A stretch of 64,000 bases of DNA from Tieghemostelium lacteum (Eukaryota > Evosea > Eumycetozoa > Dictyosteliales > Raperosteliaceae), in the NCBI GenBank assembly GCA_001606155.1, contig LODT01000029.1:806001-870000 (forward strand). Reading direction: 5' to 3'. The stretch's first letter is position 1. Each line of letters opens with the position of its first letter. The notes below the pieces were generated by a model. The model saw only the letters and a list, made by a program, of their open reading frames with translations. It was not told the origin of the DNA and did not search any database. This document shows, in pieces, positions 26,449 through 64,000 of this stretch. The translations under genes and the position numbers were made by a program.

Positions 26449-28352
26449 ATGAATATATTACAAATTAATGGTTAGTATTTTATTTCAACATTTAAATAAA
26501 ATAAATAAAATTGATATGTATATTAACTTTGAGTAATAATGACTTAGTATTGGAGGCTAGAGATTTGGTAGCAGCTGATACAAATGGGTTTTCAGATCCA
26601 TATTGTGTTGTAATGTTAGGTTTACAAAAGAAGAAAACTAAAATACAAAAGAAAACATTGAATCCTAAATGGGGAGAAACCTTTTTATTAAGAGTTTCAC
26701 CAGTGGATACAGTACTAAAACTGTCGTTATTGGATTGGGATCAATTGAGTTCTGATGATTTTCTAGGAGAGGTATCTATAGAATTAGATCAGTTAGCTGA
26801 TGCACCTACATGGTATGGTTTGAAACCAAGACCTGATCATCCAAATGATTTTGTTAAAGGTGAAGTTTGTATAAAAGCTAGAATAGTGAAATCATCAAGT
26901 TCACAAAAAGATAAGATACCTATAAATATGATTACTGAGGTGAATAACAGAGTTTCCTCATTTGAAGAGAATGGTGATCAATTAGATATCTCTGGTATTG
27001 GGTTGGACCAAATACCAGATTTCCTCTTTGAACATGTACCAAATGTTCCAAGTCTGGATCTAGGTTTCAATCAATTCAAAATGTTTCCTTCTTTGGGAAT
27101 GTTTACAAAATTACATAGTTTAGTATTGGCAGGTAACAGTATACTAACTATTCCAGGTGAAGTATTGACTCCACTACAAAACTCCTTAAAATACCTGTCA
27201 TTGAATGGTAATCAATTAATTGCATTGCCAGTGGAAATTGGAAAAATGCGTCTGCTTGAAAAACTTGAAATTGCCAATAACAAGATTGCCGAACTTTGTG
27301 AGGAGATTGGTCAACTCAACAAGTTAGAAGAACTGAATATTGCTGGTAATCCACTAACTAAACTACCAGTTTCGTTCTGTAATCTCACAAGTTTAGAGAT
27401 TTTAGATGCCTCTGGTTGTGCATTGTATAAGTTACCTGAAGACTTCCCAACAATGACCAAATTGCTGGAGTTGAACTTTGGTAATAATAAACTAGTTGAG
27501 TTACCACAGACATTTGGTAGATTAACTAGACTTGTAGTTTTAAATATTATGGATAATAAGTTAACTGATCTACCAGTATCCATAGGTTCATGTATAGGTT
27601 TAGGTAAAATTGGTGCTGGTATTAATATTGTAGGTAACCCAATTCAATCTGAAGAGATTATTGCAAAATATAAGATTGGTAATGATCAATTGATGGATTA
27701 TCTTGAAAAACGTATGGCTATTCAAGGGTACAAACTACCTGATCTCAAACCTAAAGCATCTGCTACTGGTGGTCTTAGAAGTATGGGATCACAGAGTAAA
27801 CTTACTGATTTACCTCAACAACAACAACAACAACAATCACCACAACAACCTGTCCAACCACAATATTCATTGGTAAACAATGGTGGTAAAACATCAGCAG
27901 CTTCTACAAGTTCAAATGCACTTAATACACAAGAACTTATTAGCAAAACCATTACTCTCAAGAACTGGGGTATTTCAACTCTCCGTGGTGAACTTCGTCC
28001 CAAATTGGGAAAGATTAAAAATCAAGTGCTGCGTTGTATCAATATTCAAGAGGGTGTTGGTATTGCCAATATGATTAAACAAATGAAACCTGAAGCTGAT
28101 AAACTAAAGACTCTCATCCCACCTGGATTCCCTTTGCAACCTGTAAACACTCAAAATGTACCACTAGGTAAGATTCACAGTGGAAATGAGAAATTAGAAC
28201 AACTTAAAGATCTAGTTAATGTTTCAATTGATGATTATGATGCTCTATTTGATGCACTATATCAAATACTACCAAATTCACAAGACTCAACTGTAATCAT
28301 TCAAGTTGTACAATCTCTAAAGAAAATTAAAGAGATTTTTGATCTTCAATAA
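26449..28352 (+). CDS. C2 domain plus leucine-rich repeat protein
   Basis: A 22-nt first exon (26449..26470) joins in phase 1 to 26548..28352, giving 608 residues. The join is supported because it rebuilds the first C2 strand as MNILQINVLEARDL; reading the second exon alone gives a nonsense start. The C2 domain covers about residues 1-125 with Ca-binding aspartates in NGFSDPYC and LLDWDQLSSDDF. About nine LRRs of the PxxIxxLxxLxxLxLxxN type follow (residues 150-370), then a Gln-rich linker and a helical C-terminal domain of about 140 residues. It is probably a Ca-dependent membrane-binding scaffold, perhaps for Ras or cytoskeletal signalling (inference from domains). Confidence 0.87.
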
Positions 28353-28389: not shown

Positions 28390-31300
28390 TTATTTTTTTA
28401 ATTTTATAGCTCTTTGAATATTTACTTTTACAGTTAAATTATGTTTATAGAGTAAGAATCCACCAATAATTAAAATGATGAGGCCAAATACAGAACAACC
28501 TACAATGATTCCAATTTTTTGTATTCTTGTTAATCCAGTGGATTTAGATTGACATACTGAATTTTCTTTATCACTAGCGGTATCAGAATCAACTAGTAGA
28601 GAAAAATCAGGATCAATTACAACTGATGATTTGTAATTGGGTATATTGATACCAATGTATTGTAATTGTTGATTTTTAGTTTGAATGTTACTGTCAATGC
28701 TAACTGGACTATTGGAAATAGCTCTAATTCTATTATCTACTATACCTCTCTTTATAAATCTACCATAGAGACTGTTACTGTTAACTTGTAATTTTACATA
28801 ATCACTGTCAGTATTGGATAGAGTTTCTTGTGCTGAACAGGCATCCTCGGCAGATGACTGAATACTGGCTGATATCAATAGTTGAAGATGATTTAATTGT
28901 GATGTAAAGTTGTAGGGTGATAGTTCAATGAGGTACTTTAGAGATGATGGATTCATATCTAAATACTCATTGGCAAAGAATACTTGATCTTTGTTATTAA
29001 AGTATTGAAGTTTAACTTTAACAGATGTTACCAAACCCCTATTGGTAATATTAGTAAGATAGGTAAACTCTTGCATATTGGTACTATTCACACTTGTAGT
29101 GTTACTATATAGCCAATTAGTAAATGTGTGTGGTTGAACAAGACCACCATCAACATCCAATTCGTTTAGTGCAACTACTGAAATTAGTGATTTCAAAGTC
29201 ACATTTTCTCCATCTGGAAGAGTGTGATTGTATTCTATGTTAGGTTTGGTAGTATTGATATTTGGTTGAGTAACTATATTCTGACTGAGACAATTGAGTC
29301 CTATCCATGGATCTTTACATTGACATACACCTTTGGGGTCACATATACCATTATTTGGACCACCACATGGAGGTGTACCAGGACATTCTAAAACAGGTGT
29401 TGTTGTTGGTGTGATGTATATATATATTTGATTGGAGACCTCTCCATTCTTAATAACTGTAAGTAAGAATGATTCAGTTACATGAGACACATCTATTACT
29501 ATTAGAACATTACTGTGATATTCCATTACTTTTTTAGGAATATCATTAAATCCTACAGATACTGAAGAATCAGAAGAGTTACCAAAATTATGACCAAATA
29601 TAGAGAGTTTACCATCACTTGTAATTTCATCTACACTATCTATTACTGGAGTTAATGTAGTAAAGGTAAGTTTCGTATAGAAATCAAGGTCGGTAAGGTA
29701 ATTAATATTCAGATAATTATCTACAACACCAAAAATGGAGACATAGGCTTTATCAGTAATGCCACCTCCATAACCAAATGGTAGATTAAATGTACAAAAA
29801 TATGACCGTGTAGATGATGGTATTGAATTTGGTATTGCTCTAACAGATATATCATCAAACAAAGCAGCTTGAATTCTACATAGAGGTATATGATCACTTG
29901 AAATTAGGGAATCAGTATCTCTTGCTACAAAATTAAATTTTAATATTCTGTTTGGTGATCCAGCATCTATAGCTGGGTAGAGATTAAGTGCTGGTGGCTC
30001 TAAGAATGGTGGAGTAGTATCATTAGTTATGGAACTACATGAAGTTGTTAGTGTGAGAGTCTGATCAAACTGTTTAGAAAGAATTTCTAAAAATGGATTA
30101 ATTCTACCTGGTGTTGAGATATCAGATGGATCATAGATACTCTTTTGGTTACCATTATCTGTCAATTCAATATACTGTATGGTAAATACCTCATTGGAAA
30201 TACAACTATTCAAAGGAATTGAAACTCTATAGACATTGTTAACTATAGTTGGACCTGGTTGAATCTTAATTTCATAAGGTTTAGAATCCTTATTTGAAAA
30301 CACCATAACAAGTCCATCTCTTAACCCATTATATTGATCAGTAATAGTCATATCCCAGTATATCGAATCACCAGGGGTATACATTAACTTGTTTCCAGAT
30401 GAGACAATGTTAGTGATTAGTGGAGGCATTTCATCAGCATATGCCGAGTAGACATTTAGCTGATAATCTAGATTAGTCATTGCCAGTGTCTCTTGAGTAT
30501 ACAACAACCCCATATAAAGTATCTGATAATTCACCTGTCCAGTAAATCTACGTGCTTGTAGTGTAAATTCAATTGAATATTGTTTAGTATTTTCATTCCA
30601 TTTCCCAGCAATCCATTCAGACTCTTCATCTGGAAATTGTGAAACTAAATTCATATAAACATTAAAATCCCTATCCATATTTTTAAAACTGATAAACATA
30701 TTCAATTTAGCGCCAACCTGTGATAGATCAATATTATTAAATGAGAATTTAATAGATGTGATATTATAAAAATATTCATTATCTATTTAGAATTTTAAAA
30801 ATGAAAATGTTAATATTATAATTGAATTTAATATTAATTATATACATACTGTCACTATTTAGTGGGAATTTGGGGTATACTTGAGGTGATGGTTGAATTT
30901 GAGAGAATAGTTGTGTATTCATATTTCCTGGAAAATCATAAGAGATGAATGCTTGGGTATCAGAGAGTAGAACCTTATCATATTTAACAACCTTTTCTAA
31001 TGTACCATCAAAATAAGTTCCACTACTTATATCAGTATTAAATAATTCAAAGTGATTGTTAACTTGAATTTTATAGACGCCATATTGAGAAACTACTGAG
31101 ATTCTAATAATCATTCTTCCACCTCCCAATGGAACAAAATCAAATGATTTAATTACTGGTGGAGTGTCACTAGGTATTGTTGATCCTGAATTAAAGTTTT
31201 TAATAAGTTTCTGATTGAAATAAACCATTCCAGAGTAATTATAGAAAACTGATTGGAAATTTTGTATTGGCAATCCACCATTAAAATGAGTGATATCGTA

Positions 31301-52265: not shown

Positions 52266-54607
52266 TGATAGTATTGAGTATTAGAATGATTACTTACAAT
52301 GATTTATATAGATTACAAACATTAAAATTGAAAAAGGTATGGGCAAAGAAAGATAAAGAGATCAGAGCAAAATTGGGTGAAAAGAAAAAGGATCAAAAAG
52401 TTAAATCCATTTTCAGTAGTGATGCTGCATTTGGTGTATTGACAAATGATATTTTTAATATCATGCAAAATGTACAGTCTTTAGGTTTCTCTGCTAATCC
52501 AATTGATGATAATATCTATCATTGGAATGTAAGAATATTTGGTTTCCAACCAGATTCAAAAATCTATTCTCAACTCCAACAAATTAAAAAGGAGTACAAT
52601 TATGTTAGTATTTTACTAAAATTTCAAATTCATTTATAATAATCAAAAACTAACTATCAAACCATTTCATTGATATTTAACACCACACCACCACACCAAT
52701 AATGAATTACAATAATATTTTTAATTATTATAAATTATAGGATTATATTGAAATTCAAGCATTATTTACAGAGGACTTGTATCCATTTTATCCACCAACA
52801 ATTAAAGTTATTAGACCTAGATTACAAGGATTTTTCCTCGGTAGAGTATGTTTAGTATGAATATAGATAATATTTGAACAAAGTTACTGATTATTTAGTT
52901 TAGATTTCACATTTAGAATTACTTAAACTTGAAAATTGGAATCCAGTTTGCGACATGAAATATGTTTTAAACCATTTGAAAGAGATTTTGGAAAAATTTG
53001 GACAATTGGATGTAAATAATCCAATGAATTCATTGAATAACTCAGCAGGTAGTTATTCAACATTGGAACACTTCTTATTGAGATTGGAGATTCTCAGTGA
53101 TACCCCACCTAGAGCTAATCTTAAGTATGGTTTGGAATCTACTATTGTGAAACCAAAGGGTAATAGTAGTGCTATTACTAATCCATTTGTGGTACAGGAT
53201 AATAAGACTGTTGTACAACCTCAGTATGGGTATAAAGATAACAAGACTTATTGGGCAAAGGGTACTGGTTATGGAAGAGGTGGTCAATCAGGTTGGAATG
53301 TAGATGCATTTTTGGCTGCTCAGAAGGAGAGGGATAATGAGATTATAGGCCTACTGAATGCAGTAGAATCTGAAGTTGCAAAGAATTCCATTCCAGTTGA
53401 TATTCTAGAGGAATCTTGCTTGGTACCTTTTATAGAGTCTTATTGTAGGGATATATCTTTATTAGATGTTGAGAGACATGCTGATCTCTGGACTTCTATT
53501 CTCAAACTCATGGAGACCATGTCCTCAAATGAAAACTATTTCATATTATTTACACAATTGTCATTCCAGACAAAGTCTTTAGGAGACTATATAAAGGATG
53601 TTAGTATTGAGATTGAGTTGGTTATGAAAAGACTGGATGACGCTACAAAGAAAGGTTTGGTACTACAGAATACTATTCTAAGAGTAAACAACTTGATTCA
53701 GAGTAAATTGAAGAAGATGAATGACGAAATTCGTCAATTAGAGAACCAAGCAAAGTCTATAAGCAATAGCAGTAATAATAATAATACTACCAAGAAACAA
53801 GGTGCATCAGACGAAGAAATGTATATTCGTACTTTGAAAAACCTCATATTTGATGCATGCACTCTCAAGGGTATAACCAAACCAGGATACACTTCAACTC
53901 AAGCTAGAACATTGAGAATTGCACAAGAACAAGGTACACTAATCAAATCATTACCATTGAACTATGAAAGTTCAGTATTTGCACGTGTTGATGACAAGTC
54001 TATTGATATTATGCAGGTTTTGATTACAGGACCTAAAGACACACCTTACAGCGGAGGTTGCTTCTTATTTAATGTTGTATTCTCTCAAACCTATCCACAA
54101 GCACCACCATCAGTTTTGATTATGACAACTGGTGGAGGATCAGTACGTTTTAATCCTAATCTCTATAATACTGGTAAAGTGTGTCTATCACTTTTAGGTA
54201 CTTGGTCTGGTGGTGCTGGTGAGAATTGGAATCCACAGACATCAACTCTCTTGCAAGTTCTAGTCAGTATCCAATCACTCATTCTCGTCCCAGAGCCATT
54301 CTTTAACGAACCAGGATACGAGAGTCAGATGGGTACACCTCAAGGTAAACAATCATCATTCGCATACAACCAAAACATTAGAGTTGCAACAATGGAATGG
54401 GCAATGGTAGACATGTTAAAGAATCCACCTGAACCATTCAAGGAAGTAGTTCAAACTCACTTTTACTATTCTCGTGAGAAACTCAAAAATCAGTGTGCTG
54501 AATGGGTAGAAGAATCTAAATCCTCTAAAGAATACTATGCTAAAATACTTAAAGCCTATAATAATTTAATTATAGAATTGGATAAATTAGTTCCTCCAGC
54601 TCTGTAA
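51550..54607 (+). CDS. BIRC6-type ubiquitin-conjugating enzyme with two UBC-like folds
   Basis: Six exons, 51550..51714, 51804..51926, 51992..52176, 52312..52603, 52741..52845 and 52904..54607, give 857 residues. An N-terminal region is followed by an acidic Asp/Glu run (about 105-158) and a first UBC-like fold at about 195-320 (LYPFYPPTIKVIRPRLQG, then WNPVCDMKYVLNHL). A long helical part comes next, then a second UBC at about 640-800. The second has the BIRC6 pattern: QVLITGPKDTPYSGGCFLF, RFNPNLYNTGKVCLSLLGTW with catalytic Cys717, ENWNPQTSTLLQVLVSIQSL and EPFFNEPGYE. There is no BIR domain. BIRC6 and UBE2O are hybrid E2/E3 enzymes; a similar role is inferred. Confidence 0.87.
52185..52265 (+). 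repeat. (ATG)27 trinucleotide microsatellite inside an intron
   Basis: An uninterrupted run of 27 ATG/GAT units fills most of intron 3 of the E2-like gene. It begins just after the donor (GTAGGT at 52177) that follows an exon coding an Asp/Glu run, and ends about 45 bp before the acceptor. If translated it would continue the acidic tract, but an in-frame TAG sits at the junction. Confidence 0.9.
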
Positions 54608-60674: not shown

Positions 60675-63600
60675 CTATATTCTACTAATTTTTATAATAT
60701 CCTTTAATTTGGAGAGCTGATGGACAGGAATAATTGATTCTTTAACCTCCAAACATATAAAATCAACTTTTCTATTCTGTGATACCAATAAATCAAATAT
60801 TGATAATTTAGTATTTGGATCAATTAATTTCTTTTCAACTAGTTCATTTCTATATATATATATATTAAAGGATTAATATTAATATTTAAATACTATTAAT
60901 AAGTTAGATTATAAAAAACATACTCTTTTGGTAAAGAAAACATATTAACATTCTTAGGAAAAGTTTGAATAATTTCAGAGATTCTCTGAACAATTTCTTC
61001 ATATTTCATACCCTTTAGGATTTCCATTCTAATAGTAAGATCTTTTTGGGTATTGATATTCTTGTAGTTTACAAATTGGAAGGTAACTACAATCTTGTTG
61101 TATGTGAAATTAAAGTAATCCGAGAGAAATGGAAAAGTTACATTTTCTCTAGATGATAATGCTCTCTGACATATAATAAGTGCACCATTTGTCAATTCAT
61201 GATATTTTAGTGATCTATGAGGATCAAGACTAAAGACAACATTCATAGAGTCCTCACCGTACATTAACAATTGAGTATTAATAGGTGAACACATTTTCTG
61301 ATTGATAAATGGAATGAAATAGCTGAGCGGACTGTTGATATTGCATACCTTACTAGCAACAAACTTGAGTGATGATGTATAGGGATCATAGTACTTGAAA
61401 AATACTAGAATCGATTCATTATTGATAGGATCAAAAAAGAGATTCTTTTCATTTGGATGTGGTGCACTTGAGATTTCTAAATAGAATCTAATCTCATTCT
61501 GACCGTGAAGATTTAGATATTGAGTGAATATATCCTCGTCATCCAAAACCAGAGGACACCTTGTAACTCTGCTAATCCTTGTAGGAGTAGGATCCCAAAA
61601 CCAATATCTCTGTCTTTCAAATGGTATTCCAAACATCATTTGAATCTGCAACTTAATCTCTAATAATGTACTCAATTTTCTGATTTTAATTGGATGGTGT
61701 CTTTGGAAATCAATGAGATCAAATCCATTAGATTTCTCAAAATCACAATCAACAGTCAATTTAATGGTGTGATAGTAGAATGCCTCTTCATCCGATTTCT
61801 GTTTTTTCAATTGTTCATTGAGTTCAGCGTCATCACTAAACTGAGTGAGTTGTTGTAGTTGAGATTTACTGTACATTTGAATATGCTTAGAAGTCTCTTG
61901 ACTATAACTATGCAAATGTTCATTATCCAGTATATTCTGTGAAAGGTAGTAGATAGTGACACTAACAGTCAAAGAATCACCATCTAAAAATCCACTGTCT
62001 TCACGTCTGATAGTCTCCAATGAAAGAAACTTCTTGAACCCCCAATTGACACTACTGTAACAAAAGGTGTGAAAACTGTACTTTTTCTCTGATTTCTTTA
62101 TATCCTTATTCACAACCTCCAGTATAAAACAAATATACTGTCTAATCTTTGGACGACTCTTTGGATCTACATAATCCAAATAAAGTGAAAAGAAACCACT
62201 AGCCTGATTACCTTTTGGAAATACATAGAATCTCCAATTACTTCCAAACAGACTAAACATTGGTGAGTAAAATGATTTGTCCAATGATAAAAAGTTATCA
62301 ATCTTGAATGAAAACGAACCGGATTTCTCACCACTCTTTACAATGGTATTAGTAACCACTTGTTGATTACTCTGACTCTGAAGATTCAGTCTCTCCAGAC
62401 CATAGATACTGTTATTATTATTACCATTGATATTCAAAAAGTGCATTTCTGGATTCTGTATAGATATTGGTTTTAGAAAATCTGAACAAATAACGATCAA
62501 TTCCAGATTTATAATGATTTGGTCATTCTTTATAAATCCCTTCTCAGGTTTATACAATGTTGATATTTTCATAAATTTTTGAAATAACCAACTAAATGAT
62601 CCATATGAATAAATATTACTAATGTCTATATTAATTTATATATTAGTTATTAGTCATGTACTTTTAGAGTATGGTATATGTTATGGAACTTACATTTTTT
62701 AAAACTTTTTGCAGGATTATCCTGATTTTCAATTTCAATTGAAAATGAAATATGTTTTCTTAGGAGAGGTTTGGTTTTGATATCAATCAAATCAAGATAA
62801 ATTGAAAAATAATCAGTTAGATTTTCCAATGGATAACTAACTAATTGCCAATTACATCCTGCTCTCTGAAAAGTAGGTGAAAATATTAAATCTAGATTTG
62901 ATTGTTTTTTAGCTACAAATCTATATTTTCCGCAATCTGGATTACCAATTTTAAGATTATGTTCAATCTCAAAACTAAACAATGTTTTTAGTAAAAAAAA
63001 TTAGAATATTAGAAGATTGAGTTCAATCTGTCTTAAAGTTACATACTTTGGAGATGGTTCACTGAAATTTGAAGACATTACGGTGAACTCTATATTAATG
63101 ACAATGGTATCATCTACAATATAACCTAGATCTGGGTTCAAAAGTGTTGCCAATAAAACAAATTTTGGAAATCCAAAATTCATGTTTTTGTCATCAAATA
63201 CATGATCAACCCATTTCTTTAGATTTTTCTCTGGATTCTTTTGATTGACAATTTCGATTGCAAAAAATAAATGTTTCACCAGTAATGGTTTGAATTTAAC
63301 ATCTAAAAGATCTAAATATACTGAAAAATAATTTGGTGATGAATAACCATTTGGAAATATATATATCCTCCTGAATGAATACAAAAAATAAAAATATTAA
63401 TACTTGAATGTAAATGAATGGTGCTATAAAAAACATACCAATTTGAACCACAAATATGATGGGCAGGTGAATAAAAATTTTCAAAATGATGTGAAACATT
63501 GGTTAGATTATATGAGAATTTGCCATATGGTTTAACTTCTGATGGATCTGATTTATCAATGGTCTCTGGTGCACTGATTTCCACTTTGATCTTCAAATGA

Positions 63601-64000
63601 TCATTTACTAAATATCCATTAGCTGGGTTCTGTAAGGTTTGTAAACTTAAAAAACTGATAAACCCCCAATTTACACCTTTAAATGAAAAATTATGATTTG
63701 AAGCTAATATTATGTTTTTATAAAAAAAATTAAAGTGTTTGTTAGAGTTTGATCGTTTTGAGATGTCACCAAAACTGATATACTGATATTCGATCAGATT
63801 TACAAATTGTAAAAAATTAAAAAAAAAAATTTTTAATAATAAAAAATGTTGTTTATGGTGGTTCCAAAAATAAACTAAGTTTGAATTATAGAGAGTAGAG
63901 AAAATAAGAAAATTTAAATAAACTTCTACAATTCTCTCTTGGTGTGTTTAGAAATATAACAAAAACCACACTAATAAAAATAAAGTACATACTCTTTTTT
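60675..64000 (-). CDS. MATH-repeat protein with USP7-type HUBL domains and no protease domain (5' end outside window)
   Basis: In-window exons: 64000..63993 (end of an exon), 63703..63439, 63370..63047, 62974..62694, 62625..60924 and 60849..60675, about 918 codons. Three complete MATH domains and the tail of a fourth are seen. Each ends with a KK-x13-F segment (for example KKYSFHTFCYSSVNWGF) and contains GSNW, FPxGN and FSxYLD motifs. Directly after the last MATH comes a helical linker (ELNEQLKKQKSDEEAFYY), then segments aligning with USP7 HUBL1-3: RYWFWDP, ILVFFKYYDPYTSSLKFV, LLMYGED and GALIICQRA. The USP Cys and His boxes are absent, and the protein stops after HUBL3. It may be a non-catalytic adaptor. 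Confidence 0.82.

Follow-up and report, generated by a model that had tools for sequence, protein, structure and literature searches.

Results

The window analyzed here, a stretch of 64,000 nucleotides (nt) from the dictyostelid Tieghemostelium lacteum (contig LODT01000029.1, positions 806,001 to 870,000), carries at its right edge a minus-strand gene that enters from beyond position 64000, is visible at 63703..60675, and ends at 60675. Splicing of its five visible exons gives a single frame of 914 amino acids (aa), in which the sole stop codon is terminal. Comparison with known families and solved structures confirmed that the product is, as far as its sequence tells, a relative of the deubiquitinase USP7 with an array of MATH domains and no catalytic core in the visible part. 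The initial annotation, which had assigned this feature to 60675-64000, was right that the gene is real; its stated start, 60675, is where the stop codon ends on the minus strand, and the 5' end lies beyond 64000.

The exons, all on the minus strand (A, 63703-63439; B, 63370-63047; C, 62974-62694; D, 62625-60924; and E, 60849-60675), are separated by four GT..AG introns of 68, 72, 68, and 74 nt. Exon A is an open frame preceded by the acceptor TAG and followed by the donor GTATGT, exon D has an uninterrupted reading frame of 567 aa, and exon E encodes the end of HUBL3, a 37-aa tail, and the stop codon. When the mononucleotides of exon D were shuffled 500 times, no open frame was longer than 143 aa, compared with the 567 aa of the real exon. 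In total, 2,747 exon bases are free of internal stops and the splice signals are intact, with a G+C content of 0.24-0.32 in the exons versus 0.11-0.22 in the four short introns.

The spliced protein was scanned with Pfam, listing matches at E-values up to 1 with filters that drop most matches above about 0.1. Four families were listed in the visible 914 aa, i.e., MATH_2, MATH, USP7_ICP0_bdg, and a sub-threshold ubiquitin match. MATH_2 is found in four stretches (3.7e-62, 209 bits in all) and the MATH family reaches 107.9 bits. The first repeat, MATH-A, is present only as its C-terminal half (about 63561-63703, about aa 1-47) in exon A, which also contains the start of MATH-B; the domain borders in this exon were set by hand from residue positions, and the half-domain aligns with the other repeats. 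MATH-B (63064..63542, minus strand) is split by the 68-nt intron 63438-63371 and provides the best MATH_2 stretch (aa 67-182). MATH-C (62477..62949, minus strand), which is among the four MATH_2 stretches, is split by the 68-nt intron 62693-62626, and MATH-D (61937..62332, minus strand), matched by Pfam MATH at aa 399-514, lies wholly in exon D.

Among solved structures, the USP7 MATH domain is the top match for all three full repeats: MATH-B (3.9e-08), MATH-C (1.2e-05, limited to the C-terminal half of the repeat, query 66-124), and MATH-D (1e-07, with SPOP second at 7.4e-06). MATH-D has 34 of 120 aligned positions in common with human USP7. A profile built from all four repeats, one of them a half, also finds USP7 ahead of SPOP (4.3e-13 and 1.2e-08, respectively). 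As solved structures cover few MATH families, USP7 as the best match for the repeats is suggestive only. Identity to MATH-B is 37% for MATH-C, 36% for MATH-D, and 38% for the visible half of MATH-A; together with the best matches to USP7, these similarities speak for duplication of a USP7-type MATH domain, insofar as this can be read from sequence.

At the window edge, the 8 bases 63993..64000 (minus strand) precede a GTATGT donor at 63992 and are a candidate tail of the preceding exon. A real donor there would imply an intron of 289 nt ahead of exon A (63704-63992), four times as long as the others. Its place and phase in MATH-A, judged by eye, match those of the intron between exons C and D in MATH-C, as would be expected had a MATH module carried its intron along when it was duplicated. 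A real exon within 63704-63991 was considered and rejected, as the stretch (G+C 0.21) offers no MATH-like reading by eye, no profile search of it having been made.

The part of the protein after MATH-D resembles USP7 more closely than any other protein of solved structure (5.3e-14). A counterpart of the USP7 post-catalytic helix (61781..61855, minus strand; aa 547-571) begins about 32 aa past the end of the MATH-D match, at a point that aligns with human residue 538, and is followed by the HUBL1-3 region (60789..61780, minus strand; aa 572-877), which is split by the 74-nt intron 60923-60850. USP7_ICP0_bdg (PF12436) matches aa 628-877 over positions 1-240 of its 241-position profile (3.8e-32, 112 bits, cut-off 27), beginning at about 61612 and reaching 20 aa into exon E, and the sub-threshold ubiquitin match falls in the HUBL1 part (aa 598-629). 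In a phmmer comparison with the full-length USP7 chain 9plr_C, human residues 538-839 were matched, and the helix and HUBL part share 72 identical residues out of 309 with human USP7 chain 4wph_A, a few tag residues of the chain being counted. USP7 accounts for 14 of the 15 sequences listed for the HUBL part, the fifteenth being a weak match to another enzyme (E 0.52); an NCBIfam scan of this part gave a chance match only (E 0.25). That USP7 is the best match both here and for each full MATH repeat suggests that the protein is a USP7 descendant.

At the place that the catalytic domain takes in USP7, this protein has none. The human USP7 sequence has its MATH match up to residue 194 and its helix from 538 on, leaving about 340 residues between them, compared with about 32 here, where the end of the MATH match (aa 514) and the start of the helix (aa 547) are both inside exon D. 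Across the visible 914 aa, Pfam listed neither UCH nor USP7_C2 (PF14533) with E-values up to 1. The stop codon comes 37 aa beyond the end of the PF12436 match, and thus HUBL4-5 and the activating C-terminal tail are absent as well. The possibility that a catalytic exon had been overlooked between the MATH and HUBL parts was rejected, because the introns there are only 68-74 nt and the protein runs from MATH-D into HUBL3 within one exon. A UCH domain could now lie only upstream of MATH-A, beyond the window. A Pfam scan (E up to 0.001) of 17 of the 46 listed open frames of at least 120 aa in the window found no UCH match; the frames of the present gene were covered as the spliced protein.

These results bear out most of what the initial annotation had proposed: similarity to USP7 from the post-catalytic helix through HUBL1-3, at least four MATH domains, no protease at its USP7 position, and loss of HUBL4-5. 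Of the Pfam models that it suggested for a check (MATH, UCH, USP7_ICP0_bdg, and USP7_C2), only MATH and USP7_ICP0_bdg were listed for the visible protein, and the missed catalytic exon that it had named as speaking against its view did not turn up.

Its further suggestion, that the protein could bind USP7 substrates and partners, was weakened by a comparison of the ligand pockets. Human USP7 binds KxxxK-type ligands via a cavity formed by E736, D758, E759, and D764; binding of DNMT1 is abolished by alanine at 736, at 764 alone, or at 758, 759, and 764 jointly, and is largely lowered by N630A, while E744A and D762A alone have no such effect (PMC4432644). This site is shared by DNMT1, UHRF1, ICP0, and histones H3 and H2A (PMC4624675). 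The counterparts of these cavity residues (PMC4432644, PMC4624675) lie in the HUBL2 stretch at 61181..61258 (minus strand), where, in the phmmer alignment, E736, D758, E759, and D764 are replaced by G, H, E, and A, so that one of the four is kept. The same alignment, which is less certain near N630 than at 758-764, shows D762 changed to N, N630 to R, K739 to S, and E744 to F, with S629, E759, and L760 of the HUBL pocket retained. The MATH pocket of human USP7 is disrupted by the double mutant D164A,W165A (PMC6389929). The counterparts of D164 in repeats A-D are N, N, S, and N, none being Asp, and those of W165 are W, F, W, and W, with Trp in three of four. Repeats A and D retain the W-G-F of the pocket and, judging from these residues, may still bind peptides. 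From the substitutions we infer that the specificity has probably shifted away from that of human USP7.

A tblastn search of the window with the spliced protein revealed no paralogue, as the only hits beyond the exons of the gene itself had E-values of 5.8 and 9.5. In two non-eukaryotic collections, the HUBL part had no pattern match among viral contigs and 25 among prokaryote genomes, none of which was confirmed, and none of the 154 pattern matches of the MATH alignment among viral contigs was confirmed either. Elsewhere in the window, a 567-aa open frame (52904-54604) with a UQ_con (ubiquitin-conjugating) domain at aa 359-483 is a second gene of the ubiquitin system, about 6 kb from the USP7-like gene. 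Another open frame (26505-28349) encodes a C2 domain at its N-terminus and leucine-rich repeats after it, and a third (28393-30786) contains DUF7035, DUF7034, DUF7949, and ComC_SSD; open frames beyond 30786, up to 32538, may be part of the same gene. Its ComC_SSD, DUF7034, and DUF7035 domains, which we take to be dictyostelid families, fit the assignment of the DNA to a dictyostelid.

Discussion

The protein shares with USP7/HAUSP, a deubiquitinase of MATH-UCH-HUBL1-5 architecture whose plant representatives form the UBP12/13 class, the type of its MATH domain, the post-catalytic helix, and HUBL1-3. In contrast to USP7, it has no catalytic domain in the visible part and no HUBL4-5, contains at least four MATH domains rather than one, and differs in residues of both known human ligand pockets. 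SPOP and other MATH-BTB adaptors use MATH non-enzymatically to bind short motifs. SPOP also ranks second among the solved structures matched by MATH-D and by the repeat profile, but the present protein carries the HUBL1-3 of USP7, and BTB was not listed by Pfam in its visible 914 aa. Tandem MATH domains without a protease, as seen here, are also found in plants, where the Brassica proteins of class I mostly have two MATH domains and those of class III have four; unlike the present protein, no USP7 HUBL part is named for them in the available part of that paper (PMC3664471). Among dictyostelids, more than 40 TRAF-like proteins are predicted in D. discoideum; they likewise contain domains of the TRAF/MATH family, but the portion of the paper at hand mentions no HUBL part (PMC5758549). 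Among the matches listed from the open-licence literature, the architecture described here is undescribed.

On balance, we consider it likely that this gene is a dictyostelid descendant or paralogue of USP7 that lost its protease together with HUBL4-5, multiplied its MATH domain, and became a non-enzymatic, multivalent scaffold for binding peptides. In such a history, the catalytic domain between MATH and HUBL1 would have been deleted, HUBL4-5 and the C-terminal activating tail would have been lost, and the USP7-type MATH domain would have been duplicated several times. The expressed protein would then present several MATH domains side by side on a HUBL1-3 rod to bind short motifs, and, judged from its domains, the scaffold role is its most likely function.

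Retention of USP7-type MATH repeats and of HUBL1-3 would also suit a competitive decoy, one that binds the substrates and partners of the catalytic USP7 in the cell and protects them from losing ubiquitin. Repeats A and D do preserve the W-G-F of their pocket, and the HUBL pocket preserves S629, E759, and L760. However, three of the four acidic-cavity residues are changed, as is D164 in all four repeats. With both known pockets altered, we favor a scaffold whose specificity has shifted over a decoy that shares the ligands of USP7, and we therefore regard the decoy as unlikely. The same altered pocket residues, along with the shortened C-terminus, could be taken as signs of a decaying USP7 pseudogene, but the long exonic frame without internal stops, the intact splice signals, and the near-complete PF12436 match make such decay highly improbable.

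The deletion itself may be questioned as well. An unrelated MATH-array gene could have captured a HUBL1-3 segment, and the occurrence of protease-free multi-MATH proteins, e.g., in plants, lends this fusion some plausibility (PMC3664471). Nevertheless, all three full repeats score best with the USP7 MATH domain, and the helix that comes after MATH-D is the post-catalytic one of USP7. With few MATH families represented by solved structures, this is suggestive only, and a fusion seems to us about as doubtful as a decoy. Far less probable than either is a longer gene with a UCH domain 5' of the window, i.e., a rearranged but active deubiquitinase. Although the window edge cuts the gene within MATH-A and leaves the N-terminus outside, the USP7 catalytic domain sits between MATH and HUBL, a place that is empty in the present protein, which has also lost HUBL4-5 and the activating tail.

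Several points weigh against a USP7-derived scaffold. The 5' part of the gene is outside the window, and the match of MATH-C to USP7 is only partial. A single-sequence AlphaFold model of 320 aa of the HUBL region was too poor (mean predicted local distance difference test score, pLDDT, 34.9), and thus the predicted fold gives no structural confirmation of HUBL1-3, whose assignment is based on sequence. The pockets were measured against human USP7, and a dictyostelid catalytic USP7 may differ there too. No homologue of the same architecture was found in the viral and prokaryote collections, where misses say little. Conservation, and hence function, is a candidate property only, and the gene may be a young or decaying copy.

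A broader possibility, which we put forward tentatively and at somewhat less than even chances, is a family of USP7 descendants, conserved among dictyostelids, whose members abandoned catalysis together with its activator and became MATH-array scaffolds with new motif specificity. To our knowledge, most pseudo-deubiquitinases retain a dead catalytic fold; the present protein lacks both the catalytic domain and the activating HUBL4-5 and has kept and multiplied the recognition parts. In such a protein, USP7's binding would be naturally uncoupled from its cutting, offering a way to test what HUBL1-3 and MATH can do by themselves; the case is of interest mainly for the ubiquitin and dictyostelid fields. 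If such a conserved family does exist, the USP7 platform would have a second, non-proteolytic life.
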